DNA of 64,000 nucleotides, taken from positions 62,001 to 126,000 of the forward strand of contig CAJTGE010000009.1 in the NCBI GenBank assembly GCA_910575795.1, read 5' to 3'. How positions within the stretch are numbered: the first letter of the stretch is position 1; every line of letters starts with the position of its first letter. Origin of the DNA: Clostridiaceae bacterium. Its GTDB lineage: Bacteria; Bacillota; Clostridia; Lachnospirales; Lachnospiraceae. The translations under genes and the position numbers were made by a program. Below, in pieces: positions 38,104-64,000 of the stretch. Below the pieces are notes generated by a model that saw nothing but the letters and a program-made list of their open reading frames with translations, was not told where the DNA came from and ran no database searches.

Positions 38104-39288
38104 ATGAGAAGGGCAAATGGGACAGGCATGATATTCAAGATTAAAGGCGGCAGTCGGCGCAAACCCTGGCGAGTCAGAATTACGGTTGGCTGGGAGTTTA
38201 ACGAGTTGACAGGCAAGTCAAAGCAAATCATAAAAACCCTTGGATATTATGCCACCAGACGTGAGGCAGAAATGGCATTAAACGAGTATCTGGAGGAACC
38301 ATACAATATCAGCGATAAAGATATTACTTTTTCGGAGTTGTACGAAAAGTGGTCAGACAGCTATCTTCCCACTTTGTCAGGGGTATCCTCAGAGCGCACG
38401 ATTACCAGTGCATACCGTTATATGCATCCGATTTATAATATGAAAGTCCGTGATATTCGTGTACGGCATTTGGAGGGTTGCCTGCAAGATGGGTATGTAA
38501 TCCCCGATAGAGGGAAGGAAAAGGGCAAGAAGCGGTATGCCAGCGCATGTACGAAGGGACGTATGAAGTCGGTATTCAATTTGATGTTTGACTACGCTCT
38601 GAAGTACGACATTATAAAGACAAATTATGCCAGAAACTTTGACCTTGGCAAAGAAGCAGCGGAGCAAAAGCGCAGGGATCAAAAGCCAATTTCCATATTT
38701 ACCAATGACGAACTGGGGCTTTTATGGGAGAATTTAGATAAGATAAAATTTGTGGATATGATTCTTGTGGGTATCTACTCAGGCTGGAGGCCGCAGGAGT
38801 TGTCTATTTTGAAGCTTGAAGACATTGACTTGGAGAACAATACGTTTTTCGGAGGTCTTAAGACGGAGGCAGGAAAGAACCGATACGTTCCCATCCATCC
38901 GCTGATTCGGGAGTTGGTGGTAAGGAGGTATGAAGAGGCAGTGGAGGCGAACAGCAAGTTTTTGTTTAATGACCCCGAAGGCCAGAGGGGTACTACTCTG
39001 ACCTATGACAAATACCGCAACAGGTTTAATAAAGTGATGACTCGCCTGGGTATGACGCATAGACCCCATGAAACCCGTCACACGTTTTCTACACTGGCAA
39101 AGGCTTATGATATGAGGGACAATGTCCGTAGGCTGATTATTGGCCATAGCATTGTGGATTTTACTGACCGTGTGTATACTCATCCTTTGTTGGAGGAGCT
39201 GCAGAGTGAGATGGGTAAGATTGGGAAATGGTATCCTTATGGGGTTACACCGGAGCCAGTTGTGGATGATAAAGGTGAAGATGAGTAG
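38104..39288 (+). CDS. int: Tyrosine-type site-specific integrase
   Basis: A 394-residue tyrosine recombinase. It has an N-terminal arm-binding part, a SAM-like core-binding domain (~60-170) and a catalytic domain with Arg in GIYSGWRPQEL, HxxR in HETRHTFSTLA and GHSIVDFTDRVYTH containing the second His and the nucleophile Tyr. This matches the Tn916-type/phage integrase class of Firmicutes. The ATG at 38104 is chosen from TTGGAGG upstream; earlier starts in frame lack a site. Being the outermost gene, its attachment site should lie in 37.84-38.10 kb. Confidence 0.92.
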   Translation: MRRANGTGMIFKIKGGSRRKPWRVRITVGWEFNELTGKSKQIIKTLGYYATRREAEMALNEYLEEPYNISDKDITFSELYEKWSDSYLPTLSGVSSERTITSAYRYMHPIYNMKVRDIRVRHLEGCLQDGYVIPDRGKEKGKKRYASACTKGRMKSVFNLMFDYALKYDIIKTNYARNFDLGKEAAEQKRRDQKPISIFTNDELGLLWENLDKIKFVDMILVGIYSGWRPQELSILKLEDIDLENNTFFGGLKTEAGKNRYVPIHPLIRELVVRRYEEAVEANSKFLFNDPEGQRGTTLTYDKYRNRFNKVMTRLGMTHRPHETRHTFSTLAKAYDMRDNVRRLIIGHSIVDFTDRVYTHPLLEELQSEMGKIGKWYPYGVTPEPVVDDKGEDE

Positions 39289-39394
39289 GAGTTTGAGGAG
39301 GCGGTAAAAATATATAAAGAGTCCAGCAACCAGGGGTATCCCAAGCCCCTAGATGGGCTACTTTTATGGTAATGGATAATTTTGGCAGTTTTTG

Positions 39395-39423
39395 TTGAGG
39401 CTTGTCGTGACATGTGATACAAT
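39395..39423 (+). promoter_or_regulatory. Promoter before the methyltransferase gene
   Basis: TTGAGG at 39395-39400 and TACAAT at 39418-39423 with a 17-bp spacer, 30 bases before the start codon. Confidence 0.55.
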
Positions 39424-39452
39424 CATGTTATCAAAAGCGGGAGGTAAATGTT

Positions 39453-41429
39453 ATGACACATCAAGAAGCTCAGTTACTACTGGATAGCATGTTAATGCCC
39501 TTTAACATCCACAAAAGGCGGCTTCAGGCTAATGCTACATTGTCTGACAACGAAAAGGAGTTGCTGTTACAGATTGTGGTTGATTTCGAAGGGGTGGGGG
39601 AGAAGTACGATTACAAAAAAGCCTTGACTGATATTGCCACCATTATGCGGAGATACGTAAAGGAGGCTGATGGATCAACCGAGGAGGGTAACAAGTATGT
39701 GATTCAGCCAGAGGCTTTACCTTTCCTGATTCATCAGGTGCTGTTTTTTGTGGCAGTTTCATGCAATGTATATGATTCAATGGCATCACAGAATGACATC
39801 TTGTCTGAGATAGAGAAAAATGGTGTGTCAATATCCCATAATTTCTTCAGTCGAAAGAATACAACGCCTATCCAGTATATTTCGATGTGCAAGTACGAGC
39901 CGCCTAAAATGGTAACTAATTATATGGGGCAAAAACACGACGAGTTGAGCGTTGCAATCAAGAATCTTGTCTATCAGGCTGGAAAATATGATATTTTCTG
40001 CGATATATTTGGAGGAAGCGGAGCCGCATTACTTTCAGTGGACAGACGCAAAAACACGGGTTATGTATATAACGAGTTGAACCGAAATGTCCGTAATCTG
40101 TTTGAAGTGTTAGCTGACGACAGCAAGCACCTAGAGTTGATAGAAGAATTGGAGACACTCCAAAAAGACTTAAGAGGTGATGGCAGATGGCTTGAACATG
40201 TGGATTTTGAGCAAGAAGTTCAAGACTTTGTTTCGTCTATGAGTCGGATATCTCTCAAACATAAGGAGTTGGTTGCGGAAGACCCATCAGACTTCGATAT
40301 GGAGTACAGCGATGTTGTCAAGTGGATGCGAGATATTAGGGCAGAAGTTCTTTCTCTGTCAGATGATTTTTCTTTCTCTTTTGACGGAGAAACCTACGAT
40401 AAGCAGTATCTGTTAAATGAGGTGTTCAATGATGTAGCCAATCCTACCCAAATGAACGGATATGAACTTTTTATGAGTTTCTTCCGTAATTACAGATTGA
40501 TTTGGGCTTTCTGGTGGGACTTTGTCAGGTTTACAGTTTCTGCCATGCGGGGAGAGTTTTACTCTGAGTTAGAGGGAAAAGTTAAATCTGAAAACCATCC
40601 TGTAATGCTACAACGTCATAAGCGGTACAGATTTTATATGTATTATGCCTATTTTATAAATCTGTTAAACAAGTCAGGCACAATTGAGCCAGACAGCATG
40701 GTAAGGCGCGCAGTGGCCGAGATATATAAGCAGTTCTTTATCACTAATGGAAAGACGGGAGTTTCCCCTATATTGCGTATGGATGTTGATTGGAGTTATA
40801 AGGCTGGCTCTAACGCTACTAAAAGTTTCCTTGCTCAAGATTTCAGGGAGATGATTTCCAATGTACATAAAATTGCCAGGGGTACTGTCTGTGAAGGTTT
40901 AGATTGTATTGATGTGATTAAGAAGTACCAGCATTCCAGCCAGGAGACAGGAGTAGCTCATAACAATCCTATTTTCTACTCTGATTCTCCCTACATTGAA
41001 ACTTCAGATTATACAAATGAGGCTGTAGGGGTACCGGCATTTGACTCAAACAAGATGAAGGATTTGATTGTTGCTTTGAAAGCCAGTGGAGATAATTTTA
41101 TTTTCTCATGTAGAGCCGCAAAGGGTTCAGTGAATGGCTCCGAGACAACAGATGAACTTAAAACGAGTAATATGAGGCTTAAAGCTGCTGTTTTCGATTG
41201 CTTCAGCCAAGAGTTTATCCAGGCGGACAGTCCTCTTTGGGTACTGGCAATCGAGAAAAAAGGTTCTCTGGCTAATTTGATCCAGGCCAATAAAGTTGCT
41301 GAGATTATGATTACAAACTTCGAGATAGCCGATTTCTCGTCAAACAGTGCATGCTGTAAGAATACTACCTTCAAGACTTATACATTCCAAAACTTTATGG
41401 AAATTTGGAGTCAGAATGCAAATGTTTAA
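39453..41429 (+). CDS. D12-class N6-adenine DNA methyltransferase-like protein
   Basis: A 658-residue protein. The AdoMet-binding motif FCDIFGGSGAALLS is near residue 180 and the catalytic-type motif YSDSPYIETSDY near 510. In Dam-like enzymes the latter is DPPY; DSPY still keeps Asp, Pro and Tyr. The ~330 residues between the motifs are much longer than in Dam and would hold the target-recognition part. An N-terminal ~170-residue region has no recognised fold. The start at 39453 follows GGGAGG. It may protect the element or mark it; its site is unknown. No restriction gene is adjacent. Confidence 0.7.
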   Translation: MTHQEAQLLLDSMLMPFNIHKRRLQANATLSDNEKELLLQIVVDFEGVGEKYDYKKALTDIATIMRRYVKEADGSTEEGNKYVIQPEALPFLIHQVLFFVAVSCNVYDSMASQNDILSEIEKNGVSISHNFFSRKNTTPIQYISMCKYEPPKMVTNYMGQKHDELSVAIKNLVYQAGKYDIFCDIFGGSGAALLSVDRRKNTGYVYNELNRNVRNLFEVLADDSKHLELIEELETLQKDLRGDGRWLEHVDFEQEVQDFVSSMSRISLKHKELVAEDPSDFDMEYSDVVKWMRDIRAEVLSLSDDFSFSFDGETYDKQYLLNEVFNDVANPTQMNGYELFMSFFRNYRLIWAFWWDFVRFTVSAMRGEFYSELEGKVKSENHPVMLQRHKRYRFYMYYAYFINLLNKSGTIEPDSMVRRAVAEIYKQFFITNGKTGVSPILRMDVDWSYKAGSNATKSFLAQDFREMISNVHKIARGTVCEGLDCIDVIKKYQHSSQETGVAHNNPIFYSDSPYIETSDYTNEAVGVPAFDSNKMKDLIVALKASGDNFIFSCRAAKGSVNGSETTDELKTSNMRLKAAVFDCFSQEFIQADSPLWVLAIEKKGSLANLIQANKVAEIMITNFEIADFSSNSACCKNTTFKTYTFQNFMEIWSQNANV

Positions 41430-41588
41430 TTGAATGGTATTCAGGGAATGAGTTTTCTCTGCCAAATCAGGGGTACTCATTCACTCATTTTCCTATAAAT
41501 TCCTTTACTATCAAATAGAACCAATCAGCGGATTGTATTCCAACAGCCCCAGTCAGGGGTATTCTAAACTTAGTAGGAGGGATTTATA

Positions 41589-41777
41589 ATGCAAGGTGGA
41601 GATTTTATGTCTAGCGGAGATGTATGTGATTATTGTCAGTTCAGTTACTCGGTGCTTAACAGGCTCCAGACCCAAGGGGTATTAACCCCAGTCAGGGTAC
41701 TGCCAGCCAGCAAAAAGAGGTTCTTTCTCCGCAGTGATGTGGAGGCATACATGAACAACTTAAGACAGGGGAAATAA
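41589..41777 (+). CDS. Small helix-turn-helix protein, excisionase-like
   Basis: A 62-residue protein: SSGDVCDYCQFSYSVLNRLQ is a winged HTH start followed by PASKKRFFLRSDVEAYMN, the wing and final helix of the HTH_17/MerR-like excisionase group. Such proteins steer integrase toward excision or repress promoters. TAGGAGG precedes the ATG at 41589. A terminator follows directly. It resembles the 61-residue protein at 52132 in fold but not closely in sequence. Confidence 0.7.
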   Translation: MQGGDFMSSGDVCDYCQFSYSVLNRLQTQGVLTPVRVLPASKKRFFLRSDVEAYMNNLRQGK

Positions 41778-41785
41778 TACAGATT

Positions 41786-41819
41786 GAGGGCAGCCTAAAG
41801 ACAAGGTTGCTCTCTTTTT
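41786..41819 (+). terminator. Rho-independent terminator
   Basis: GAGGGCAGCCT...AGGTTGCTCTC followed by TTTTT. Confidence 0.75.
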
Positions 41820-42195
41820 GTATATATGGTTTTTTTCCTACCAGTTAAGTTTAAAATGGTATGAGTGCCAGTTGTATATTGCTTTAGATTCTCATATCCC
41901 AGGGGTATGGGAAATTGCTTCTATCACTTTCTGATTATCGTTTCTCAGTTTGTTTTCTTAACCATCGATATCTCAATAAATCTTCCTAACTAAATAAATC
42001 TACTTTTTCCCCGTGGGGGGAGTGCATCCGAAGTTGGCCAATAGGCGTACAAGAAATATTGTCTATTTGAGTTCACCATTTTTAAATGAGTTTTTCTGAT
42101 CGCCCCTTTGAGACGTTCTTATAGTGTTTATAAAGTTAATTTCGGTTAATTCGTCCAGGGGTATTAACAACGATGAAAGGGAAGGAGATATTTTT
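41820..42195. other. Intergenic region before the HNH-like gene
   Basis: AT-rich, no gene seen. Holds two copies of the GGGGTAY word (near 41900 and 42156) and the upstream part of the next gene's frame, which lacks its own start site before 42196. Confidence 0.5.
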
Positions 42196-42951
42196 ATGTG
42201 TCAGACAGTATTGAATCATTTTAGAGGCTATGAGGGCTTGAGCCAGACAGAACAGATTGATAAGTTAGCTGATGAGTTGGAGGCGGCGGGTATCGAAGTT
42301 GTCAGTCCCAGGTTTAGGAAAGGTTTCAATATAACCCATTTTGTGGGAGATGAGTATGTTTTTACAAAGTTTATAAAGAAAACGACAGGTGAGTCATACT
42401 TCACCATATTCGATAGAACTATTTATGACAAGTATCTCGTCGGGCGAGGTGGTATTACTGTAGCTTCAGGAAGTACTAGCCCCATTAAGTGGGTTAGGCT
42501 TTATAGTGCTCCGATAGCAGACGAGTTACACAGACTAACTATAAAAGAATTTGGTCAGTCGTTAGATAATGGATTGGTGGTTGATCATATATTCATGAAC
42601 CCATTCATTAACACTTCGGAGGCGCTAAGACCCTGTACTCATAGTCAGAATAAAAGACATAGCCTATGTTCTCTCCGTAGAGTATTAGACGAGATAGCCA
42701 GATCAAGAGAACCGTATGAGTTTATATATGACCCATCCATTGATTTTACTAATACGGGGTACGCCTATGCTTTACATAAAATGCTGGGCATAGGCACTTG
42801 GGAAGACCTCAGAGATTACAACATTGACTATATCAAACGAAACAATGCGAGTCTTACTAACTTGTACAGCGGTCTGTCCGCAATGGTTAAGGCTGATATA
42901 GACCCTAAATTTGCTAACGAGAGTTGGTACAGAGCCATAACTGCTTTTTAG
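42196..42951 (+). CDS. HNH-endonuclease-like protein (degenerate)
   Basis: A 251-residue cytosolic protein. Residues ~130-160 read VVDHIFMNPFINTSEALRPC followed by THSQNKRH, close to the HNH pattern of homing endonucleases (vDHinGnplDNr..NLR..thsqNxxn) with an Asp-His pair and a distal Asn-His. Some usual residues are changed, so activity is uncertain. The start at 42196 follows GGAAGGAGATA. The rest has no recognised domain. It sits before two unknown cytosolic genes in the same direction. Confidence 0.5.
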   Translation: MCQTVLNHFRGYEGLSQTEQIDKLADELEAAGIEVVSPRFRKGFNITHFVGDEYVFTKFIKKTTGESYFTIFDRTIYDKYLVGRGGITVASGSTSPIKWVRLYSAPIADELHRLTIKEFGQSLDNGLVVDHIFMNPFINTSEALRPCTHSQNKRHSLCSLRRVLDEIARSREPYEFIYDPSIDFTNTGYAYALHKMLGIGTWEDLRDYNIDYIKRNNASLTNLYSGLSAMVKADIDPKFANESWYRAITAF

Positions 42952-42963
42952 GAGGTAAAATCT

Positions 42964-43551
42964 ATGCTCAGGAGTTACAGTTTTGGAATTGTTAAGGGTA
43001 CATTTCCTTTTAAGCATTGGGTGATTTTTGATGAGGCTGCATCATCAGATTTAGAATATGCATATGAGATTATTAAGGCAGTTGAGGCTGGAAGGCTTCA
43101 GCTCAAGGATGATTTTAACCTTTCAGCATATTGCGCTAAGGTAAGACGGAATCAAAAATTAGGAAAAGCGGAGGAAGCCTCAAGAGTTCTACGCATTTCA
43201 GATACAGATGGGGATAGTGTGAGAGGTGAAGACGGCGATATAGACTCTTGTGGAGTTTCAATGTCAAACGTTATCAAGTATGCTGACCAGGTTGACGAGT
43301 TTTTAAAAACAGATGAGGAAGAAGACTTTTATAATGCGATTGATACATTGAATCGTATGCAGGTTGATATTCTTATCAGGTATCAGGTGAATTTTTGGCA
43401 CTGTATGGGACAGGCATTGAGGGGTATCCCGGAGGCCATTGATTTGCTACACAAGTTAACGGAGGAGTCTCCCAAGATTGGAGAATTGATATGGATTGTA
43501 TTATCAAGTGGCAAGTCATTGTCTGATTTGGAGCAGATAAATATAGCATAA
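42964..43551 (+). CDS. Hypothetical cytosolic protein of the element
   Basis: A 195-residue acidic protein without membrane segments or recognised motifs. AGGAGGTAAAATCT precedes the ATG and the gap to the previous gene is 12 bases, so the two are probably co-translated. A helical N-terminal half (SSDLEYAYEIIKAVEAGRLQ) and an acidic middle (DTDGDSVRGEDGDIDS) are the only notable features. Confidence 0.65.
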   Translation: MLRSYSFGIVKGTFPFKHWVIFDEAASSDLEYAYEIIKAVEAGRLQLKDDFNLSAYCAKVRRNQKLGKAEEASRVLRISDTDGDSVRGEDGDIDSCGVSMSNVIKYADQVDEFLKTDEEEDFYNAIDTLNRMQVDILIRYQVNFWHCMGQALRGIPEAIDLLHKLTEESPKIGELIWIVLSSGKSLSDLEQINIA

Positions 43552-43584
43552 TGAGATACTTATTTTAGGGAAGGAGATAAGGTA

Positions 43585-44709
43585 ATGGGAATATTAAAAC
43601 CTAGCGAGAGTGTCCCCAGGTTATATGATAGTGTTAGAGAACATACGCAGATTCTATCTGAGTTAGCCTTGTATAAGACACTAAATTTTTCTCAAGATAA
43701 TGAGGGGCACAAGAGACTGCAAACAATGAGAAATGCTTTAATACAAGAGGGTGAAAATATAACGGCTGATTCCTCCATTTTAAGCCATACGGAGGTTGAG
43801 TTTGAGGTTGTTAAACTAATGCTTGGTAATGTGCTGAACAACAATAGGCTCTTATTACGTTTAAGCAAATCAGGGGCGTTGAAATTTTATGCAGATAATG
43901 AAAGTCAAATGAGGTTATTGTGGAAGGTACTTAAGGCAGTTGACGAAGATATGAAGATAATGGAACCATATGTAGGATTTATGGAGGTATTTAGTGAATT
44001 CTATACTTCAGAGTTACAGGCACTTCGTGAGGCGGTTATAGAGGGGGAACCAGCTCATACAGAAGCTCCCCAGGAAGAGCCAGAAGTCAAGGAGCCAGAG
44101 GAGGCAGTTCATACGACAGTTGCCCAGGAGGAGCCAGAGGTTAAGGAGCCAGAGGAACCGGTTCATACAGAAACTCCCCAGGAGGAGGCAGGAGAGTCAA
44201 CAGTGAAAAAGTCTGAGTATTCATTTTATGATGATTTTGGCATTGATATCGGTGCTATCAGATTTTTAACGAATATGTCAGATGAAATATTACTTAAGAC
44301 GGAAGTTTTTCTAAAAAGGTACATAGAACAATGCAACAAGGTAACAGGCTTTAAATTGTCTAATGGATTTATACTCAATTATAGATACAAGAAGGCACAG
44401 CATATAGTCTATGATTGGCTGGAGTCTATTCGGAAGACTGGCAGTCTAAGCCCTTTGGAGGATGAGGATGACGAGGAGATGCAGTGGCTGTATTTTTCCA
44501 GTTTCCATTCCATAGAGGAAATCAGGGGTATGACAAGCCTTATTATCAGCAGTGCTTACAATGTGATTTGCCCACCACCTTCAAAGACCAAAGCGGACAG
44601 GTTCCAGCTTGGCCGCTGGCATTGCCAGAAGGAGATTGTATTGCAGGCAGCGAATGCGGAGATTGAGGAATTTGGCAGGTATTTATGGGAAAAGGTGAAG
44701 GAGGTGTAA
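43585..44709 (+). CDS. Hypothetical protein with acidic Glu/Pro repeats
   Basis: A 374-residue protein in three parts: a helical N-terminal domain (~1-155), a linker of three imperfect ~19-residue repeats (HTEAPQEEPEVKEPEEAV, then HTTVAQEEPEVKEPEEPV and HTETPQEEAGES) and a C-terminal domain (~210-374). No signal or membrane segment. GGGAAGGAGATAAGG precedes the ATG. Function unknown. It ends in a 1-base overlap with the next small gene. Confidence 0.65.
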   Translation: MGILKPSESVPRLYDSVREHTQILSELALYKTLNFSQDNEGHKRLQTMRNALIQEGENITADSSILSHTEVEFEVVKLMLGNVLNNNRLLLRLSKSGALKFYADNESQMRLLWKVLKAVDEDMKIMEPYVGFMEVFSEFYTSELQALREAVIEGEPAHTEAPQEEPEVKEPEEAVHTTVAQEEPEVKEPEEPVHTETPQEEAGESTVKKSEYSFYDDFGIDIGAIRFLTNMSDEILLKTEVFLKRYIEQCNKVTGFKLSNGFILNYRYKKAQHIVYDWLESIRKTGSLSPLEDEDDEEMQWLYFSSFHSIEEIRGMTSLIISSAYNVICPPPSKTKADRFQLGRWHCQKEIVLQAANAEIEEFGRYLWEKVKEV

Positions 44710-44909: not shown

Positions 44910-44945
44910 AATAGAGTTAGGCTCCAAGTTCTGAGTTGTGTGGTT

Positions 44946-44983
44946 ACGGCGGTTTCACTGATTGGTGAGACCGTTGTCATTTT
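44946..44983 (+). terminator. Rho-independent terminator
   Basis: ACGGCGGTTTCAC...GTGAGACCGTTGT with a short T-rich tail. Confidence 0.65.
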
Positions 44984-45003
44984 ATAGGAGGCGATAAGAA
45001 GTG

Positions 45004-50343: not shown

Positions 50344-50364
50344 CGTGATATGGCTTGGCTCTCT

Positions 50365-54439: not shown

Positions 54440-54478
54440 TTCAGTTCTTTCAACAGACAAGGGAGGCGGTTAGAAGAT

Positions 54479-57400
54479 ATGAGGAGATACAAAAAGTATT
54501 TAGCTTGTATGCTTATAATCTCACAGATTTTAATGCTAACGCCAATGAAACTCCATGCAGGGGTGCTGGAGGCAGGAGCGGCATTCGAGTCTGCTGAGAG
54601 TATAGGGGGTATTGAAGGTTCCACCGAGGGGGCAGAGGCCACCGAAGGAGGAGAGGCCACCGAAGGAGGCACCGAGACTACCGAGGGAACGGAGTCTATC
54701 GAGGATACAACCTCCAGCGGGGTATCCCAATCGGAGCCAGACTCCCAGGGGGAATCGGAGATTACCGAGGAATCAGAGGATACCGAGGGAATAGGTTCCA
54801 GCGGGGTATCTCAATCGGAGCCAGAAGCCCCGGAGGGTACGGAGGAGCCAGAAGCCCCGGAGGAATCAGAACCCCTGGAGGAGCCAGAGTCCACGGAGGA
54901 AGCAGAACCCACGGAGGAGCCGGAGTCCCCGGAGGATACGGAGAAGCCGGAGTTCACGGAGGAATCAGACCCCACAGAAGAATCAGAAGACTCCAACGAG
55001 GTATCTGATCCAGAAGGCGAGACCTCCGGTGAAACATCAGAGACCCAGGCCGAGGAGCCAGATGAGTCACAGCCCTCCAATACCGTGCCAGGGGTATCCG
55101 ATAGCAAGCCAGAAGTACCAGAGTCAAAGCCCTCTGAGGGCGAGTCAGGAGAAAGGCCACCAGAACTCAGCAATCCAGTAGAAACGAATCCCGGCGGGGT
55201 ATCTGATATGCCCTCAACGGCTACATCCTCCAACGCTTCAAAGCCAGAAGACGAGGAGGAACTAGAAGTTGACATTGAGGTATATTACACCTTAAAGGTA
55301 GTTGATACCTATATCAGTACGGAACAAGACGAGGGAGAGTCTGTTGTAAGGTACGTGGATACAGTGCTTGAGGGGGAGGAATACTGCTTCAGTGCCTTGG
55401 AAGTTGAGGGCTATATAGCAGTTGATGAAGTTGAGTATTCAGGGGTACTGATAGAGGATTTAACCCTTGAGTTTATATACATTAAAGACTCATTATTTGA
55501 CGTATCTTTGTTAGGGGGTACTGTACTGTCAAATGACTATGCTTCAGCCGAACTTTATGAGGATGAGAAGCTCCTTATAGTCACAGACATGTACAAATCA
55601 GGCAGAAGTTCAGACTATCCCTGGTACAATTTGATTAGCGGTTATCGAGTTGAATTCGCTGATGGCTTGCCTGTTATTTATGGAAGTACCTTTAGTCGGT
55701 CGGGTATTGTCGGAGATCTTGTAATTCCAGCTTCTGTGACGGAAATCGGCAATAATGCTTTTAGCAGTTGTACAGGACTGACTGGTGAGTTGGTAATTTC
55801 AGAAGGGGTAACATCGATCGGTAATGAGGCATTTAGGGACTGTTCAAATTTGACTGGAAACCTGGTAATACCTGATTCTGTGACGTCTTTGGGAAATGGG
55901 GTATTCAGGGGTTGTTCCCACTTCAGCAGTTTGACTTTAAGCGGTTCATTACAGTTGATTCCTGATAATGCGTTTCGTGATTGTTCTGGTTTTAGGGGAA
56001 ATCTTGTTATTCCAGAATCCGTTAAAGAAGTCAAGAGTTATGCGTTCTTTGGGGATTCAGGTTTTGATGGCACGTTAACGATTGGAGATTCCGTACAAGC
56101 CATAAGAGATGGAGCATTTTATAATTGTTCTGGTTTAACTGGTGATTTAGTTATTCCCGACAATGTGACATCCATAGGAAATGTAGCATTTCAGGGTTGC
56201 AAAGGAATGAGGGGCACCTTAAGCCTTGGCAGTTCCCTTATCACCATTGGGGATAATGCTTTTAAAGACTGCTCTGGTTTTACAGATGCTTTGGTGATTC
56301 CAGATAGCGTGGTATCCCTCGGTGAAGGTGCCTTTTATAATGCCAGAGGCTTTAGCGGCTTCCTCACTCTAAGCAAGTCATTAGTTACCATTAACCGTGA
56401 GGCATTTCGTGGTTGTACGGGGCTTACAGGTGCTTTAGTTATTCCAGATACAGTAGAGACGATAGGTAATGCCGCATTTTTATATACTGGGTTTTCAGGT
56501 ACCCTGACTCTTGGTAATTCAGTAAGAACGATTGGAAATGAGGCATTTAAAGACTGTAAAGGTTTGAAAGGCGACCTGATAATCCATGATGCGATTGAGA
56601 GTATTGGATCAAATGCTTTCAATGGCTGTACAGGCTTCAATGGGGTACTGAGTTTGGGTTCCCATCTTAAGACCATAGGAGGAAGTGCCTTCAAAGGCTG
56701 TACAGGTTTGAAAGGCGACCTTGTAATCCCTGATAATGTGATAAGCCTGGGTGCTGAAGCGTTTAACGGTTGTACAGGCTTTGATGGTTCTATCAAGATA
56801 GGAAGCTCTATACAGACGATTGAAGCGTATGCATTTAACGGCTGTTCTGGCCTATCGGGGGATATGGCTCTGCCGGATACAGTAAAGCTCATCGGCTATT
56901 CAGCATTTAACGGTTGCTCTAATATGGGTGATACTCTTGTAATCCCTGACAAAGTAACCACCATATCACGTTGGACGTTCAGTGGCAGCGATGGGGTAAC
57001 AATTATCCGTGGCGGCGAGGGTATAACGAGTTTACTTTCAGATGGGCTTCATTACGGGGCATTTCGTACCACCGAGTTAACGCCGACGCTTTTATACACA
57101 GACAACGAGATTCTTTTAAACCACGATTGGGGCAATGAAAACCGTGAGATATATTTCGAGGTAGCCTTCAATTCCAATGGGGGTACTCCAGTGGCCTCCC
57201 AGCATGTCAAGGCTGGGGAACTGGCCAAGGAGCCGAAGGCTCCCACCAGAGATAACTATGTATTTATTGGCTGGACAAAGGATAAGGCAGCCCTGACAAA
57301 TCCCAAGGCTGGTGAAGTATTTGATTTTGCTACACCAATTACAAGATATACAGTTTTGTATGCAAAATGGGCAAAACAAGTGACTATCACAGTAGTTGAC

Positions 57401-58438
57401 GAGTATTACGATTCAGAGGGTATTACACAAATTAAATCCGTTGAACGTGAGAAGATGGTTGTCGGAGAGGGCGAGGCATTCGAGGTAAAGGCTTTAAGCC
57501 CCAGGGGGTACGAGGTGGTTGGCGAGGATGTTTTCTCCGGCACAGCAGATGAAGACACTGTTATTACCTTCCAATATTGGGAGAAGGCGGTGAAGGAGCA
57601 TACCATTACCGTAACAGATGAGTATTACGATACAGATGGCACAACCCTTTTAGATTCTGTACAACGGGTAAGTGAAGTTGTTCAGGATGGGGAGTCTTAT
57701 CAGTATGAAGCTCTGACGGAGCTGCCAGATGGTTTTGAGTTGGTCGGTAGCTCTGTGTGTTCAGGGATATGCACAGAGGATACAGCCATTGTCTTTAAGT
57801 ATGTAAAAGTGCAGAAGTTTACTGTAACGGTGCTAGACACATATTATGACGTGGATAATACGACCCTTCTTTCTTCAGAAGTCCGTGTAAGTGAACTTAT
57901 CCGTGCGGGCAGTTCTTACAGTTATGAGGCTTTAGGTACGATAGGCTTCAAGGTGACGGGGCAAGATTCCTACACTGGTATCGTATCAGAAGACATTACC
58001 CTAACCTTCAGGTACATAGAGGACATAGATGTCCTTGGGGGTACTTTAGTTATCTCCATACCGGCGGAGATGGAATTGAAATATGATTCTTCTCTCAATG
58101 AGTACATCAAGACAGATTCCATCTATGCCAGCGGCAGGTGCGGAGTAACAAAACAGCTTAATGTGGAAACCCCTCGATACATCACTTTTGTAAACGGGGA
58201 GGATAACGGAGTTAAGATTGATAATGGTTTGGTTGAGTTTGGCACACCGGTAGCAGATGACTCTGAAAGTACCAGGGAGCAGTGGTCGGGAGCAGAGTTG
58301 AGGGAGGGGTTAACTTCACCAGTACGAAAAAACATTTCAGTTTCCGTAGATAAGAGGGAGATAGACTATCTTGGCTCTTATAAATCTGTTATAACCTATC
58401 ATATTACCATGACTGAAAGTTCAGAAGCTGGCGAGTAG
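54479..58438 (+). CDS. BspA-type leucine-rich-repeat surface protein
   Basis: A 1319-residue exported protein. Signal peptide MRRYKKYLACMLIISQILML (start at 54479, GGGAGGCGG upstream). Order of parts: an acidic Glu/Pro/Ser/Thr-rich region (~40-260); a first MucBP-like unit (~260-345); about eighteen LRR_5/BspA repeats (~400-840, each like LTGDLVIPDNVTSIGNVAFQ followed by GCKG); an InlB-type B repeat (FNSNGGTPVAS...FIGWTKDK, ~890-965); three MucBP-like repeats (~965-1180); and the element-specific secreted domain at the C-terminus (~1185-1315). No LPxTG or other wall anchor. Such LRR proteins mediate adhesion to host or other bacteria. Confidence 0.85.
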   Translation: MRRYKKYLACMLIISQILMLTPMKLHAGVLEAGAAFESAESIGGIEGSTEGAEATEGGEATEGGTETTEGTESIEDTTSSGVSQSEPDSQGESEITEESEDTEGIGSSGVSQSEPEAPEGTEEPEAPEESEPLEEPESTEEAEPTEEPESPEDTEKPEFTEESDPTEESEDSNEVSDPEGETSGETSETQAEEPDESQPSNTVPGVSDSKPEVPESKPSEGESGERPPELSNPVETNPGGVSDMPSTATSSNASKPEDEEELEVDIEVYYTLKVVDTYISTEQDEGESVVRYVDTVLEGEEYCFSALEVEGYIAVDEVEYSGVLIEDLTLEFIYIKDSLFDVSLLGGTVLSNDYASAELYEDEKLLIVTDMYKSGRSSDYPWYNLISGYRVEFADGLPVIYGSTFSRSGIVGDLVIPASVTEIGNNAFSSCTGLTGELVISEGVTSIGNEAFRDCSNLTGNLVIPDSVTSLGNGVFRGCSHFSSLTLSGSLQLIPDNAFRDCSGFRGNLVIPESVKEVKSYAFFGDSGFDGTLTIGDSVQAIRDGAFYNCSGLTGDLVIPDNVTSIGNVAFQGCKGMRGTLSLGSSLITIGDNAFKDCSGFTDALVIPDSVVSLGEGAFYNARGFSGFLTLSKSLVTINREAFRGCTGLTGALVIPDTVETIGNAAFLYTGFSGTLTLGNSVRTIGNEAFKDCKGLKGDLIIHDAIESIGSNAFNGCTGFNGVLSLGSHLKTIGGSAFKGCTGLKGDLVIPDNVISLGAEAFNGCTGFDGSIKIGSSIQTIEAYAFNGCSGLSGDMALPDTVKLIGYSAFNGCSNMGDTLVIPDKVTTISRWTFSGSDGVTIIRGGEGITSLLSDGLHYGAFRTTELTPTLLYTDNEILLNHDWGNENREIYFEVAFNSNGGTPVASQHVKAGELAKEPKAPTRDNYVFIGWTKDKAALTNPKAGEVFDFATPITRYTVLYAKWAKQVTITVVDEYYDSEGITQIKSVEREKMVVGEGEAFEVKALSPRGYEVVGEDVFSGTADEDTVITFQYWEKAVKEHTITVTDEYYDTDGTTLLDSVQRVSEVVQDGESYQYEALTELPDGFELVGSSVCSGICTEDTAIVFKYVKVQKFTVTVLDTYYDVDNTTLLSSEVRVSELIRAGSSYSYEALGTIGFKVTGQDSYTGIVSEDITLTFRYIEDIDVLGGTLVISIPAEMELKYDSSLNEYIKTDSIYASGRCGVTKQLNVETPRYITFVNGEDNGVKIDNGLVEFGTPVADDSESTREQWSGAELREGLTSPVRKNISVSVDKREIDYLGSYKSVITYHITMTESSEAGE

Positions 58439-58455
58439 GCCAGTTGAGCAGAAAG

Positions 58456-58484
58456 AGCACTTACAATGATGAGTGCTTTTTTTG
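58456..58484 (+). terminator. Rho-independent terminator
   Basis: AGCACT...AGTGCT followed by TTTTTTT. Confidence 0.8.
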
Positions 58485-58492
58485 TGTCTTTT

Positions 58493-58860
58493 AGATTTTA
58501 TAGGGGTATCTAAGATTTTTACAAGGGAAGGTATCCTTATCCCCAGGATAGAATATGTGCAGCCAGGTTCTTTATCACACGTTGAGAGAGGGCGGTTGAT
58601 GTATGACTTCTATTCGGGTTTCATAGGGGTATCAAGTTTTTAGTTCCAAAGCAGGTGTGTGTGGCAGCAGGTTCTTTGTCACACGTTAAGGGAAAGGCAT
58701 TTAAGGCGAGAGAGTGTATTTATTTCATTCAGATTTTATAGGGGTATCAAAACTTTTTACAAGGGAGTGTATCTCTATCCCCGGGATAGAATACATGCAG
58801 TCAGGTTCTTTGTCACACGTTAAGACTAAGGCGTTTAATGTGTGACTTTCTGGCGAGAGT
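58493..58860 (+). repeat. Three long direct repeats, non-coding
   Basis: Units of roughly 105-135 bases start at ~58493, ~58613 and ~58730. Each has TATAGGGGTATC or CATAGGGGTATC near its start and AGGTTCTTTGTCACACGTT (or one change) in its second half; units 1 and 3 also share ACAAGGGA...GTATC and a CCCC-GG-ATAGAATA stretch with a small palindrome. No coding frame runs through them. Confidence 0.8.
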
Positions 58861-59326
58861 GGCTTTGTCAGATTTTTTTAGGATTTTGGAGTTTTTTCGT
58901 ATGGTGTTTATATAGCCAGAAAGCAGGCCAGCTAAGGGTTTTATGACGGGAGGTGAAAAAGCGCTTGAGATTGGAAAAGTGTCATCATGTATGCAGAAAA
59001 ACCTTGTGTCACAGGGGTACGTTACGCCATTTGGGATTTTGCTTGTTTAGGAGGTTTCCCAAAATATAATCTTATTCCTATCCACTAAAGTTCTCTTTGT
59101 GGTTTAAATCGAGAAGATATTTTTGCATGGAGAAGTAGGAGGCGGTTCCCTTGGATATGAGGTAGCTATGAGAAAGTAGGATTTTGGGGAGCAATGGAAT
59201 ATATTTGCCAGGGGTATTCTTTTTGGCCCCATATACGGTGATACAGCATCTATTGGTATGCACGAATGGGGTAAATTCCCCAGGGGTACGCAGGGGTTTC
59301 GCTGACTTTCCGCTTTGATTTTCTAG
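58861..59326. other. Intergenic region without recognised gene
   Basis: No convincing gene. A ribosome-like GGGAGGTGAAAAAG at ~58949 is followed only by a short frame. GGGGTAY copies occur near 59014, 59211 and 59281, the last with a second GGGGT 11 bases on. Confidence 0.4.
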
Positions 59327-59355
59327 TTGCCATTAGCAAATATGTATGCTAAAAT
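59327..59355 (+). promoter_or_regulatory. Sigma-A promoter of the structured leader
   Basis: TTGCCA at 59327-59332 and TAAAAT at 59350-59355 with a 17-bp spacer. Predicted start near 59362, 320 bases upstream of the next gene. Confidence 0.7.
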
Positions 59356-59361
59356 AGACCT

Positions 59362-59685
59362 TGAGAAATCATAGAACGACAAAGAGGTGTACCACCACGA
59401 GGAGTTGCAGCTCCCCGTGGCAAGGCATGGTAGTTATGGTACCACACAATACTGACGAATCAGCGATACACACAATAATTATAAAGCACTGGAAGTAAAA
59501 GTGCAATCTTTTTTGTGTTGTTAAGTTGATGAAGTCTACCTTCAGATATATTTACGAGGTGTTGGTGTGGACGCATACTGGCACCTCGTTCTTGATTTCT
59601 CACCTGGGTGCTTTGGTGGCGGAATAATCTGCCACTGGAGTATCCTAAGTGAGAATTTTATTGTTCTTGAAAGGAGACGAGTTAA
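59362..59685 (+). ncRNA. Candidate structured leader RNA or attenuator
   Basis: The transcript from the promoter at 59327 would fold strongly: CCACGAGGAG/CTCCCCGTGG (59393-59420), an enclosing GTGTACCA/TGGTACCACAC arm, a GCACT...AGTGC hairpin followed by AATCTTTTTT at ~59487-59516 that looks like an intrinsic terminator, then GAGGTG...CACCTC and GTGGCGG...CTGCCAC hairpins before the ribosome site. This matches a small RNA or a riboswitch-type attenuator for the secreted protein gene at 59686. I recognise no known riboswitch class in it. Confidence 0.5.
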
Positions 59686-60696
59686 ATGAGAAAGAGGACA
59701 GGCCTTTTAGCATTGGTCTTGGCAGCGACTATGACGTTAGGTACTTCGGTTACGGCTTTTGCGGAGGATTTCACGGTGAAAGACGGCGAGCAGTTCGAGT
59801 TTGATTCAACCGGTTTTGATGTGGCTAGACCCAGGGCTGGGGCAGTCAGTGGGCATGCTGTGGTGAATATGTACAACATCAGCCTTGAGGAGACGACTGG
59901 AAACGGTGTTGATACTCCCCAGGGCATACTAGCTGGTGTTCCAGCAGGTTATGAACTCAAGCCTGTAGTCATTAGGCAGAAGATGTCTGATGCTGATTCA
60001 GACTCATCAAATGGAGGCTATTGTGTCAAGGTTTCTGGTGTCGATGTATCAGATTTTCGGGAGACTGACCCTTCTGAGTGGAACCAGTACAGAGGTCAGC
60101 TCACTGGCTACAGTTACCGCTTCACTCTAACGAAGGATGGAGTACCTTATACCGAGTGTGGTTTACATTCTCAGTTTTCACTCACATGTATGACAGAGGA
60201 CGGTAATTTTTACCATGACTCTATCTGGTATGCGAGTATTCCACAGGGTTACACAGGCGACCTTTTCCTCACGGTGAACCCCACCAAGTACGTTGAGAAT
60301 TACAGTATAGGTAATGCAATAACTGGGGGTATCTTGGTTCAGGCATCCAGAGCAAACAATGTACGTGACGATAGCAAAAACTTCAATTTTCAGATAACAG
60401 GAGCAGGGGTATCCCCCAGAAGCACAGCAGTTTATACAGGCTGGGCAGATAGTGATCGATACTTTAATCGCTGGTATGAGGAGAGGTTTGGAACTGAAGC
60501 TTTAATGCAGCAGATACCAGAAGGCACCGTCCAGGTCGATATGTCAAGTTCCCAGTATGCAGAATTTATAGAGAGCCAAGTATATAAGGATTATATAGCT
60601 TCAGGTAATGAGATTCAGACTAATGACCTTGGTACAGCTGTTTATGTACCTAATGATTTGTACGACTCTTTTGTTATGGAAAACTGGCAGAGTTAA
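59686..60696 (+). CDS. Secreted protein of unknown function
   Basis: A 336-residue exported protein with signal peptide LLALVLAATMTLGTSVTAFA. The mature part is rich in Tyr, Asp and Ser and beta-like (GYSYRFTLTKDGVPYTECGL, YTGDLFLTVNPTKYVENYSI); no enzyme motif or anchor is seen. GAAAGGAG precedes the ATG. It is the product of the transcript with the long folded leader, which suggests tight control. The gene downstream is another secreted protein 452 bases away. Confidence 0.65.
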   Translation: MRKRTGLLALVLAATMTLGTSVTAFAEDFTVKDGEQFEFDSTGFDVARPRAGAVSGHAVVNMYNISLEETTGNGVDTPQGILAGVPAGYELKPVVIRQKMSDADSDSSNGGYCVKVSGVDVSDFRETDPSEWNQYRGQLTGYSYRFTLTKDGVPYTECGLHSQFSLTCMTEDGNFYHDSIWYASIPQGYTGDLFLTVNPTKYVENYSIGNAITGGILVQASRANNVRDDSKNFNFQITGAGVSPRSTAVYTGWADSDRYFNRWYEERFGTEALMQQIPEGTVQVDMSSSQYAEFIESQVYKDYIASGNEIQTNDLGTAVYVPNDLYDSFVMENWQS

Positions 60697-61148
60697 GACC
60701 TATTTAAGCCTTTGGGTGGAGATAAAACTTATCTTGGCAATTAAGTGGACAAGCTTCTTTTGCAAATACCAATGCAGCAGGAGGCGGCAGTCAGAACGTG
60801 GGCAGCCTTGAATATAGGTTGAACAAGCCCTAGATTCAGAAATGAGTCTAGGGCTTGTTCTGTGCTATTTTCTCAAGAATCCTTACAGTTCTCCCAGTCA
60901 GTTACATTCTTTTGGGTTTATCTCCTAATTATCACAGAAAGTTTGCAACAGACAAACCAGAGACAATTCGCATAAAATACAAGTTCAGTGAAAAAGGTTG
61001 ATTCTAACATCAGGGGTATCCATATTTTGTTTTTAACTCAAGATTGAATAAAACGTTCACTTTCAATCTCTGAAAAATTTTCCTTTCAAGACGATTTACA
61101 TACAGATATACTCGTTAACTTTATTCTTCTTGAAAGGAGGAGATCATA
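60697..61148. other. Intergenic region with a terminator hairpin
   Basis: Contains the hairpin 60821-60860 and, after it, AT-rich sequence with a GGGGTAY copy at ~61013 and the ribosome site AAAGGAGG for the next gene. A short 67-codon frame (60608-60811) overlapping the previous gene is not convincing. Confidence 0.5.
60821..60860 (+). terminator. Terminator-like hairpin
   Basis: GAACAAGCCCTAGA and TCTAGGGCTTGTTC form a perfect 14-bp stem around a 12-nt loop; the T-run after it is poor. Confidence 0.7.
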
Positions 61149-64000
61149 TTGAGATGTAGTTTAAAGCGTTTAGCCAGTATTGCCCTGGCAGTCAGTCTCT
61201 CTTTGGGTACTTGTGCCACATCTTATGCAGGTGCAATCGGAGGTGGAGGAGGTGGTGGTTTAGCTCCCCCATCAGGCAATAAGGGCGGCACCGGCAAGCC
61301 ATATACAGTCAATGAAGCGAATTGCAGCCAAGCCTTTCGAGTATACATTGCAACTCTAGGCGAGTTGGTTTCTGGCAGCAGACCAAGTTTTGGTTGGAAT
61401 GGCTTATCTGCCGAGAAAGCCGACAGACTGGCAGAAGCCCATAAAGCCGTATATGTGGTAGCCGCTGATATTCCTTACATGAGGATGTGGGATTCAAATG
61501 CCGGGAGATATATTGATATTGGCTCAGATAGGATTGTACCAGTAAGTTCCATTAAAAACATGGACGAGAGAGGCTTTGGGGTATCTCCAGGCTGTATTAT
61601 GAATGGGGCTTCTTATGTGCAGATACTTAACGCCACCTTTGGTGATTCTGCTGGCAAGTTGGATAGTTTGCTTGCGGCTATGGAGAGTTTCAGCAGCGAG
61701 GCAGCTAAGTTTGCCGAGGTAATTACAGACGCCAACAATGCGGAGCAGATTTTCTATTTGAGCAAGCCAGAAGTAGTGGAGCAGTTGAATCATTACATTG
61801 GCTGGTGGGATCAGGTATTCTCCAGTTCCTGTTTGGAGTATCCAGCAGACGCAAAGACAATGGCTCAGATAAAGTCTGATTTGTCAACGATAAGTGCCAA
61901 GGCAAAAGAGTATGTTAGTTCCAAGGGAAAAGGGCCAGGGGTACGAGACTTTCCTTTTGGAAAGTACATTGACGAGCCAGAGGACTTAATGACGTACCCA
62001 GTTGTTGTAATCGAGCCGATAGCCACCACAACCCACCAATTCAGTCAGTTCATTCCTTGTGGCATTACTCACAGGCATACAGTAAAGTATGGATATTCAG
62101 CCGGGGGTAGCGATATTAAAAAAGGGCCATTTGAGACATTCGGCCCTGGCAGGAATATGGCTAACCTGAAGAATCCATCTGGAGCCCCGCAGAAGCATTG
62201 GTGCAGTCCAGGCACAATGTTCCAGACAAAGGTATTAGATGAAGGCGACATCAAAGCAGAAGGCTCCCAAAGTGATGATTCAGGTATTCTTTTTTATGGC
62301 TGTTTCGGCATGATTGTTCTGAATACATCAGACAGGCCAAAAGGAGATCCAGAAACCCCTCCATCAATTCCAGACGAAACTCCAGATGAACCAGAGAGTT
62401 ATGCGGATATGGACTTGGCTGATTTTTATCTGCTGGATTATGAGATTAATCATGTATTCGATTCAGTTGCTGAAAAGCTCCGTCAGGGAGATGGTTCTCA
62501 CAGTTGGATGACTCTAGGTACAAACCAAGATACAACGAATCCCAGCAAGACGCTTGGTACTCTCTGTCATGGGGGTACGATAGATTACGATCCGCAGCAG
62601 TATTACACCGTTACCTACACAGAGGGTACTGGATCGGGGCCATCTGTAGCAATGGACAATGCTGGCAAACCTTTATTTTTAAAGAACAACAGCAAATACG
62701 GAGACAATTGGTTTCATCGGAGCGAGGCTCTTGGGGGTATCACATTAGACACTTCCAACATCTCAAATTATACAGTAGATTATGGTTTTAATCTGCTGAG
62801 ACGTCACTTTAAGAATGACAATCGCATTTATTCATTGCTAGTTGACCAGGAGGTATCCAAGACTTATCTGGATGATATCTTGGGAATGTATGAGGGTTTA
62901 ATGCCAAAGAATGTTATCGACCCATCCAAAAAGAGGGATAGCTTTTCGGCATTATGTGCCATCAAGGACAGCTTGAGTTGGAGTGCTGTCTGGCAGGAGA
63001 CAGGAGATACAACAAGACATTATACAACCTCCGAGTCAGAGGAGCATCATTGGACGAGTGGAGGTTCCTCCCACAGTCATACCAAGAGTTATAATGCAGA
63101 CCATGCTGGTAATGCTTTAGGTGCTTTCCAGGTAGCCAATGAGGGGTATTCCTCCTATTCATGGGACATAATCTCTCTGGCTCACAAGTATCGTACAATG
63201 AACATGCCGACAGCTTATGTTACACCTAAAATGGATTCCTTTGATATCAGGCCGACGACAGACCAGAATGGAGGTAATCGGGTTCCAGATGATGAGCAGT
63301 ATCGAGCAGCCTCACTGATTACAACCAAAGTTGAATTGGGGTATTATCCAGAGGTTCCCATGCTGGTTGACGAGGTATCAACTCCAGACTTAACCCATGA
63401 GTATAAGCCAGTCGTTACAATGGGTGAGGAGAAGCGAAAGAGCCGCAGTCCTATGCTCCTGCTGTACCGATTAGAAAGCGCCGACTCAGATGCCAGGGGT
63501 ACTGTCTATACCGATACCGCCGTTGGCGGAGCCGCTTCCCTGGGAACAAACAAGGTAGCCCTAACAGCCGGAGGTGACTTCACTGTCAAGGCAGACACGA
63601 AAATGACCATCAACCTCTACGGGTATGCAATGGATATCATTGAGCCGAGTGATCAGTCTTATACAGAAGTAACGAGGGGTAACGATGTCAAGGCCGCCTG
63701 GGGCGATATGGCGAACAACCGCAGTAAATTACTTGAGGAGTACACGCAGTGGGCAGGTGCTATGCTCAGCCCAAGAAACTACCAAGCAGATTTTGAAATG
63801 ACAATCGGTACCAAGCAATATAATAATTTCTCCGCCACAGTCGGCGGTTTCACCACACGAGCCAGCAACAGCAAGGAGGAAGGCTCCTATCCTCTGGTAT
63901 TCAAGCATGGTGACATTGACAAAACAGCCCAGGGGTACAAGGATTTCATCAAGCAGCTTGCTCAGGATTACGCCTGCAGCGAGGCAGAGGCCGATGCTCT
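61149..64000 (+). CDS. Large secreted protein, 3' end outside the window
   Basis: An open frame of ~950 codons from a TTG at 61149 to the right edge without a stop. AAAGGAGGAGATCATA precedes the start and the product opens with a signal peptide (LKRLASIALAVSLSLGTCATSYA), then a Gly-rich stretch (GAIGGGGGGGLAPPSG). The mature part is largely hydrophilic and beta-like with no recognised catalytic motif; a Pro-rich tract (PETPPSIPDETPDEPES) near residue 400 separates an N-terminal from a longer C-terminal region. A His/Ser-rich piece (HHWTSGGSSHSHTKSYNADH) is near 640. It is the fourth exported protein class in this part of the element. Confidence 0.75.
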   Translation, partial: MRCSLKRLASIALAVSLSLGTCATSYAGAIGGGGGGGLAPPSGNKGGTGKPYTVNEANCSQAFRVYIATLGELVSGSRPSFGWNGLSAEKADRLAEAHKAVYVVAADIPYMRMWDSNAGRYIDIGSDRIVPVSSIKNMDERGFGVSPGCIMNGASYVQILNATFGDSAGKLDSLLAAMESFSSEAAKFAEVITDANNAEQIFYLSKPEVVEQLNHYIGWWDQVFSSSCLEYPADAKTMAQIKSDLSTISAKAKEYVSSKGKGPGVRDFPFGKYIDEPEDLMTYPVVVIEPIATTTHQFSQFIPCGITHRHTVKYGYSAGGSDIKKGPFETFGPGRNMANLKNPSGAPQKHWCSPGTMFQTKVLDEGDIKAEGSQSDDSGILFYGCFGMIVLNTSDRPKGDPETPPSIPDETPDEPESYADMDLADFYLLDYEINHVFDSVAEKLRQGDGSHSWMTLGTNQDTTNPSKTLGTLCHGGTIDYDPQQYYTVTYTEGTGSGPSVAMDNAGKPLFLKNNSKYGDNWFHRSEALGGITLDTSNISNYTVDYGFNLLRRHFKNDNRIYSLLVDQEVSKTYLDDILGMYEGLMPKNVIDPSKKRDSFSALCAIKDSLSWSAVWQETGDTTRHYTTSESEEHHWTSGGSSHSHTKSYNADHAGNALGAFQVANEGYSSYSWDIISLAHKYRTMNMPTAYVTPKMDSFDIRPTTDQNGGNRVPDDEQYRAASLITTKVELGYYPEVPMLVDEVSTPDLTHEYKPVVTMGEEKRKSRSPMLLLYRLESADSDARGTVYTDTAVGGAASLGTNKVALTAGGDFTVKADTKMTINLYGYAMDIIEPSDQSYTEVTRGNDVKAAWGDMANNRSKLLEEYTQWAGAMLSPRNYQADFEMTIGTKQYNNFSATVGGFTTRASNSKEEGSYPLVFKHGDIDKTAQGYKDFIKQLAQDYACSEAEADA

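Follow-up and report, generated by a model that had tools for sequence, protein, structure and literature searches.

An integrative element carrying a strand-biased word

The stretch of DNA analysed here, hereafter the window, comprises 64,000 nucleotides (positions 62001-126000 of contig C9) of a Lachnospiraceae genome of 6.2 Mb (G000). Its right-hand part belongs to a large integrative element in which a short word, GGGGTA, is strongly over-represented on one strand. Our best reading is that GGGGTA serves as an address word with strand polarity, distributed along the elements of one such family, peculiar to them and maintained by selection at the DNA level. Within the window the element occupies 37835..64000 on the + strand, and by following the contig to its end we found that it continues to about 88.07 kb (window numbering is continued beyond 64000 throughout). 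The gene at 36824-37834 has at its 3' end (37801) a sequence that recurs imperfectly at 88070, as recognized by eye, and from this repeat we derive an element of about 50.3 kb (37835-88120); no exact direct repeat of at least 12 bases joining its two ends was found. The final dense GGGGTA lies at 87402, and beyond 90 kb the GC content climbs from 0.43 to 0.57 among genes that we read as being of the cobalamin type. Directly to the right of the presumed end, at about 88.36-89.5 kb (L003:4360-5500), two near-identical units each encode one same short hydrophobic peptide on the + strand, an arrangement that resembles a type I toxin locus.

Genes are defined here as the longest open frames found by script and do not constitute an annotation. 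The left end of the element codes for a tyrosine recombinase (38071..39288, +; Pfam Phage_integrase, 1.1e-12), followed by a 671-residue protein resembling adenine-DNA methyltransferases (39414..41429, +; motifs FGGSG ... SDSPY) and by a 275-residue HNH-like protein that is a candidate nuclease (42124..42951, +; signature VDH ... LR..T.SQN). Further along lie the gene of a DUF262/GmrSD_N protein (65985-67352) and that of a second tyrosine recombinase (84034-84618). Among the 38 proteins of this element that were scanned, none had a Pfam match to a relaxase, to VirB4/VirD4, to FtsK/SpoIIIE or to RecB/AddA-like proteins (E limit of 0.001 in one scan and of 0.1 in the others, the 1099-residue protein at the window's edge being scanned up to that edge), and none of nine proteins of the related element of genome G300 matched relaxases or type IV secretion ATPases. 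Since recombinases are present and the transfer proteins were not matched, we use the label integrative element only.

Between 38378 and 63940, GGGGTA occurs 70 times on the + strand and not once on the - strand, close to the roughly 65 copies, and no TACCCC, reported in an earlier note on this DNA. The adjoining chromosome (1-38377) holds seven copies on + and three on -, where that note had about six and a few, and the GC content of the element part of the window, put at about 44%, is 43.5%. The chance expectation of about five copies given there was too low: an order-2 Markov model predicts 8.6 (z score of 20.6) and an order-3 model 20.4 (z score of 10.9), the latter being inflated, we think, by GGGGTA itself. 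With either model as the null, the k-mer count that the note had called for places GGGGTA as the top 6-mer of the region; the 8-mer CAGGGGTA is present 28 times for 1.7 expected (order-3). Over the whole element the counts reach 129 on + and 4 on - (Markov expectations of 14.9 and 5.1), making GGGGTA its most over-represented 6-mer, and the reverse complement is hence not equally frequent in the part lying outside the window. As TACCCC stands at expectation (4 vs 5.1) and is not avoided, the bias represents a gain of GGGGTA on one strand.

The word is spread over the entire element. When a change of polarity was looked for in bins of 2 kb, the + count exceeded the - count throughout and the polarity never flipped; successive sixths of the element contain 16, 20, 29, 24, 24 and 16 copies, for a mean density on the + strand of one per ~0.38 kb. 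CAGGGGTAY is the commonest form, and the copies are embedded in dissimilar flanking sequence. Of note, in the gap that follows the BspA-like gene (58470-58850), the copies at 58503 and 58741 are surrounded by similar short stretches, with a lesser resemblance around that at 58626.

The word is also confined to the element within its own genome, as the earlier note had proposed. Genome-wide, CAGGGGTAY is found 105 times on + and 34 times on -, of which 61 and 0 are inside the element and 44 and 34 in the remaining ~6.18 Mb, a pattern reversed as a control being counted 40 and 25 times genome-wide; the element is thus ~100-fold denser in this form than the rest of the genome. In the two chromosome stretches examined, GGGGTA on + numbers 7 for 5.4 expected (37.8 kb) and 4 for 2.0 expected (14.4 kb). 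Genome G283, which carries a related element, has 52 and 45 copies of CAGGGGTA on its two strands (62 and 65 for the reversed pattern), nine on + and none on - being located on the contig of the element. A word of the whole host genome is therefore excluded for both G000 and G283 by these genome-wide counts.

Evidence for selection on DNA rather than on protein

Within + open frames of at least 100 residues, GGGGTA falls in all three reading frames over the whole element (38, 29 and 17 copies), and 45 of the 129 copies lie outside such frames, in sequence making up 24% of the element (P 0.004). The same is seen in the G300 element, in which 22 of 51 words lie outside called genes, in 27% of the sequence (P 0.009). 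To separate the word from the encoded proteins, codons were re-dealt synonymously with the proteins and the pooled codon usage fixed (300 shuffles each). The 84 coding copies of the G000 element compare with 14.1±3.8 in the shuffles (TACCCC: 2 vs 3.0), and an excess was likewise obtained for the G300 element (29 vs 7.3±2.7) and for G111 (17 vs 5.3±2.1), while the neighbouring chromosome showed none (6 vs 7.4±2.5). A protein-level cause is thereby ruled out, given also the spread over frames and gaps, and the view of the earlier note that the pressure is on nucleic acid is borne out. Moreover, the copies are somewhat more evenly spaced than random in the G000 element (coefficient of variation, CV, 0.84; P 0.03) and also in the G300 element (CV 0.65; P 0.001), where no pair is less than 210 bases apart.

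Regarding the nature of the nucleic acid, nearly all called element genes run on the strand of the word. Eight opposite-strand genes judged likely to be real contain four words in element polarity and one in gene sense, for 9.0 expected at element density; 1 + 1 of these come from the methyltransferase gene of G283, at the edge of its tract. One sense word or fewer has a P of 0.001 under a model of sense RNA, which predicts ~9. Taken alone, four words against one would also be compatible with equal numbers in the two orientations (P 0.38), and the DNA model likewise predicts 9, more than the five counted in all. The earlier note had written of DNA (or RNA); from the four words against one we favour an action at the DNA level, short of considering the matter settled.

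Related elements in other genera

Relatives were searched among 397 genomes of the family, own genome included. The large 1780-residue protein of the element (45001-50343) matched one other genome, G300 (1e-10), and the DUF262 protein eleven, own included (1e-20). We define a closer DUF262 group as the seven best-scoring loci (G000, G283, G111, G274, contig C20 of G300, G302 and G016), with a cut that we set ourselves between G016 (E 7e-60, 36%) and G047 (E 5e-57, 32%), a fragment in G057 on the distant side reaching 42% over 171 residues. Gene content served to choose the stretches submitted to the Markov counts (order 2), at a point when their words were already known to us. G300 C20 excepted, the tract of every relative runs up to the end of a contig and hence represents part of an element.

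Five related tracts from five other genera share the GGGGTA core and a sixth shares it weakly, which answers the search for related elements proposed in the earlier note. The G300 element has 51 words on the gene strand and one on the opposite strand (9.8 and 1.6 expected). The excess is 25 vs 3.6 expected in G283, 24 vs 6.2 in G111 (a stretch that includes a chromosomal tRNA (uracil-5-) methyltransferase gene), 9 vs 1.7 in G016 and 5 vs 0.3 on the 3.8-kb contig of G302; in G274 it is weak (5 vs 1.2). Ranked by z score, GGGGTA is first in G000, G283 and G016, second in G300 (after TGGGGT), in G111 (after GGGTAT) and in G302 (after an equal-scoring word), and 29th in G274. The flanks differ from one element to another, being CA-GGGGTA-YC in G000, AAT-GGGGTA-T in G300 and A-GGGGTA-TC in G016; a constant core with varying flanks would fit a DNA-binding protein whose specificity drifts. 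The word-bearing tracts of the six genera lie on contigs of 30-49% GC.

The positions of the word are not conserved. Alignment of the genes of the 1780-residue protein, the DUF262 protein, the amidoligase and the methyltransferase gave no word position in common, in three informative sets out of four, as the amidoligase set has one word only. It follows that sites turn over while density and polarity persist.

Six stretches at the more distant DUF262 genes (G047, G300 C26, G143, G344 and two in G057) showed no polar excess, which rules out the word as a property of any DUF262 protein, and those contigs yielded no full-length methyltransferase of the element kind. A tree built from the DUF262 proteins places every word-free locus beyond one branch, with a support of 0.985, G016 being nearest to them. 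The tree thus agrees with our cut and may reflect a single gain or loss of the word among these loci. Wider draws of genomes, from relatives and from the order (E 1e-50), yielded no further element.

The G300 element extends over ~24.4-91.2 kb of contig C20 (32% GC), where it seems to interrupt a gene resembling secretion ATPases. It carries a large serine recombinase, and a ResIII/SNF2-like helicase adjoins its methyltransferase. Genes for HsdM, HsdS (type I restriction-modification) and a KAP NTPase (nucleoside triphosphatase) lie at 62999-68868 of the same contig (L012:2999-8868), inside the word-bearing element. In G111, a gene at 51927-53696 was considered as a recombinase and rejected, its Pfam family being the tRNA (uracil-5-) methyltransferases; we therefore position the element beyond this gene. 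In all five loci that retain flanking chromosome (G000, G300, G283, G111 and G274), the word is on the G-rich strand, a call resting on GC skew and gene strand and to which G274 adds just five words, and the majority of the flanking chromosomal genes run along the strand of the word. The word strand is putatively the leading strand in all five, a co-orientation that may be a consequence of attachment sites lying at the ends of genes.

The word may also serve to locate related elements. A search of G016 for GGGGTAT gave 149 places on + and 133 on -; among the first 100 matches listed, 13 were on contig C34, every one of them on +, and GGGGTA is the top 6-mer of this contig (13 vs 2.5 expected). 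It also codes for a large serine recombinase, which shares 27% identity with the one from the G300 element. Large serine recombinases are common, and the other C34 proteins had no match to proteins of the other elements in the comparison made. We infer that C34 belongs to the same element as contig C133 of G016. Past the recombinase (L078:8912-14639), genes for an apparent further DNA methylase and for a TIR-like protein were noticed by eye, in a region where the word is sparse. The same search in G283 gave no additional contig; three short contigs hold one or two words each, with no excess.

Candidate writer and reader proteins and other genes of the element

The methyltransferase-like protein has five homologues, own included, all of which conserve a GGS motif and a D-S/P-P-Y motif ([FY]GGSG in three and FGGSA in two; DSPY in four and DPPY in that of G111). 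The D12 class of N6-adenine DNA methyltransferases is characterized by FxGxG-like and DPPY-like motifs. One of the five matches Pfam MethyltransfD12 (6e-12), presumably the G111 protein judging from its DPPY motif, and the window copy has no Pfam match. The best solved relative in a profile search of the PDB is 7m6b (1.8e-5), an adenine-specific methyltransferase. At 1e-15 this profile finds five of the 397 genomes (G000, G016, G111, G283 and G300), all of them word-rich and all among the seven with a closer DUF262 protein. Searches of G274 and of the 99% complete genome of G302 gave no such methyltransferase; incomplete assemblies may, but need not, explain this. The idea of a methylase put forward in the earlier note thus gains from the subfamily being restricted to word-rich genomes and loses from G302, which bears the word. 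An effect of D12-like methyltransferases in general was discarded: at 12 IMG/VR loci with distant matches, GGGGTA and TACCCC total 30 and 22, and none of the loci is strongly polar (raw counts, with no expectation computed).

The DUF262 protein matches Pfam GmrSD_N and the PADLOC model NsnA in all six homologues, with the motif DGQQR in four and DGAQR or DGLQR in the other two. No DUF1524 domain was matched in these six proteins, the HNH_3-like protein being separate and weak. That protein, of 275 residues, has weak homologues in the G300 and G016 tracts and a weak Pfam HNH_3 match (E 0.31); single-sequence fold predictions were of low confidence (mean predicted local distance difference test, pLDDT, of 34.6 for this protein and of 36.1 for another). 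Distant relatives of the DUF262 protein are present in 25 plasmid and 10 phage records (25-34% identity in the matches listed), and the plasmid searches gave three distant matches for the methyltransferase and four for the amidoligase. Alignments of the DUF262 protein and the amidoligase to viral contigs were uninformative.

Among the other genes, a small helix-turn-helix (HTH) protein (41589..41777, +) resembles HTH_17 under the Pfam cut-off (2e-4) and is 38% identical over 59 residues to a protein of the G111 element. The 1780-residue protein (45001..50343, +), in which hydrophobic segments are apparent by eye, is 36% identical over the alignment to its G300 counterpart. It had no match in Pfam, NCBIfam, the PDB, plasmids or phages and no useful match in viral contigs; a single 25-residue match is located on a Pseudobutyrivibrio contig, 20 kb of which hold one and three words on the two strands. 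A small MerR-like HTH protein (52132..52317, +; 4.6e-9) precedes a BspA-type leucine-rich repeat protein (54428..58438, +; LRR_5, 3.5e-91) that is likely cargo. The 1099-residue protein starting within the window (61149..64000, +, ending at 64448) has a counterpart in the G300 element. Beyond the window lie a DUF3846 protein (67315-67767) and the amidoligase (76131-77093, L002:12131-13093; Amidoligase_2, 4.1e-44), which shares 48% identity with an amidoligase of the G300 element. A 384-residue HTH protein (L002:17028-18182), whose gene has none of the words, and a 333-residue protein (L002:18513-19514) have possible counterparts, near each other, in the G300 element (24-25% in forced alignments), the 333-residue one alone being supported by blastp too (7e-4). 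Profile searches of the PDB with the 384-residue, 1780-residue and DUF262 proteins returned nothing convincing.

Proposed function and rival explanations

Taken together, these data argue for GGGGTA being a selected polar DNA word read by a protein that the element itself encodes, a reading to which we give a probability of about 0.85. The word belongs to the mobile element and is retained even as its positions turn over and the host changes. As to the identity of the reader, a tentative proposal can be drawn from the predicted proteins, since the element encodes a plausible one-strand marker together with a DUF262 protein and the word strand has a single A. The predicted D12-like adenine methyltransferase would methylate this A on the word strand, so that element DNA would be marked every ~0.4-1.3 kb and other DNA far less. 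The NTPase of the DUF262 (GmrSD_N) type, possibly assisted by the HNH-like protein, would then read the one-strand marks, much as SspE does with phosphorothioate marks on one strand. In the part of PMC9646914 considered here, SspE, itself a DUF262 protein, senses a one-strand mark at an asymmetric word, upon which GTP hydrolysis rises and nicking activity is switched on. Such a reading of the marks could distinguish element DNA and its direction from other DNA, with the outcome that element DNA would be protected or that a nicking or loading step would be directed during replication or transfer. The full picture, a family of elements with a directional address of its own, fairly evenly spaced and with flank dialects particular to each element, marked on one strand by the methyltransferase and read by the NTPase, by which the element recognizes and orients its own DNA in a foreign chromosome, is more doubtful still. 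If the word is indeed read by these two proteins, it would constitute a mobile-element self-recognition system linking DNA marks to the behaviour of the element.

Several observations weigh against this reading. G302 has the word and no methyltransferase of the element kind was found in its genome, while G274 has the DUF262 protein, no methyltransferase found and a weak excess (5 vs 1.2). Both proteins, methyltransferase and DUF262, are linked on one element, and because the word-free loci lie beyond a single branch (0.985) their co-occurrence with the word may represent a single event of shared descent. The DUF262 proteins have no match to a DUF1524-type nuclease and the HNH match is weak. 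The core is not exactly GGGGTA everywhere, the top word being GGGTAT in G111 and TGGGGT in G300. Finally, a mark for self-recognition alone needs neither over-representation nor a single orientation.

We consider it just as likely as this methyltransferase and DUF262 scheme that the word acts as a Chi- or KOPS-like signal, met by a directional machine of the element, a motor or helicase, which would change speed, direction or nuclease activity on meeting it, with no methylation needed. The word is G-rich, polar and dense, its polarity is constant from end to end, its spacing is fairly even and its positions turn over; it also lies on the putatively leading, G-rich strand in the five flanked loci, and a ResIII/SNF2-like helicase stands beside the methyltransferase in the G300 element. 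However, blastp gave no counterpart of this helicase in the G000 element, none of the motors and nucleases sought by Pfam was matched among the 38 scanned proteins of that element, and the co-orientation with replication may merely reflect attachment sites at gene ends. Improbable in our view is a signal on a transferred strand, by which the element, moving as a single strand, would be bound or marked at the word so as to be loaded, protected or made double-stranded in the recipient; this would account for the constant polarity, and the hydrophobic segments seen by eye in the large protein (45001-50343) would suit it, but transfer itself is putative and the element proteins scanned matched neither relaxases nor type IV secretion ATPases.

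Slightly less probable again is a signal in RNA, in which GGGGUA of sense transcripts would be the binding site of a small RNA or an RNA-binding protein encoded by the element. With nearly all element genes on the word strand, the polarity of the DNA is mostly also that of the RNA, yet the opposite-strand genes have one sense word for 9.0 expected (P 0.001) and four in element polarity, and words are denser outside called genes in both G000 (P 0.004) and G300 (P 0.009). This last feature, like the dissimilar flanking sequences, would also suit a mutational or repeat-seeding artefact, in which a local process writes a functionless word. Such an origin is very improbable, considering that tracts from six genera, whose contigs range from 30 to 49% GC, have the same core, that the complement stands at expectation, that the spacing is fairly even and that the adjoining chromosome has no excess.

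Comparison with known systems

The earlier note knew of no matching signal, and GGGGTA was likewise not found as a described signal in the open literature, outside of which most subscription papers fall: GGGGTAT and GGGGTAC appear there together only in unrelated work on NF-kappaB sites, and no element-private word was met, judging by title and opening of the abstract, among studies of strand bias, KOPS or Chi in mobile elements. Chi sites, which alter the activity of RecBCD or AddAB, are short, G-rich, over-represented and strand-polar words spread through coding DNA, and are enriched throughout the host chromosome. GGGGTA shares the former properties but is not enriched in the chromosome stretches examined, its CAGGGGTAY form being ~100-fold denser in the element. 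The AIMS, which include KOPS and SRS, are described in the part of PMC5993296 considered here as octamers of host genomes that are commoner on leading strands and rise towards the replication terminus; KOPS of the host are noted there in prophages, incoming DNA being tested against the words of the host. GGGGTA is similarly a strand-biased word that would give DNA a direction, and lies on the putatively leading strand in the five flanked loci, as judged by GC skew and gene strand; in contrast, the element supplies its own word, which is not enriched elsewhere in its genome. DNA uptake sequences (DUS/USS) are genome-wide, occur in both orientations and at high density and have dialects in their flanks. 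Density and flank dialects are thus common to both, whereas GGGGTA is limited to the element and to one strand, with no genome-wide enrichment in G000 or G283.

Regarding restriction-like systems, type III restriction-modification relies on one-strand N6-methyladenine (m6A) at asymmetric sites, inverted sites being depleted in a case such as T7 and EcoP15I. GGGGTA is likewise asymmetric with a single A per strand, and in G300 only a ResIII-like helicase lies beside the methyltransferase. It differs in being strongly over-represented, in the D12-like enzyme and in the inverted site not being avoided, type III-style avoidance being rejected by the counts in G000 (TACCCC 4 vs 5.1) and in G300 (minority orientation 1 vs 1.6). 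SspABCD-SspE and GmrSD comprise a DUF262 NTPase with a DGQQR motif, and the Ssp mark is sensed on one strand of an asymmetric word, according to the parts of PMC9646914 and PMC4619093 considered here. The element has a DUF262 protein with D-G-Q-Q-R and an asymmetric word; it differs by an adenine-methyltransferase-like protein in place of the sulphur chemistry, by the DUF1524 HNH nuclease domain of that family, fused or in a partner protein, not having been found and by the over-representation of the word in the DNA of the carrier itself. Polar words distributed in this way are known from chromosomes, and the present one belongs to a mobile element.

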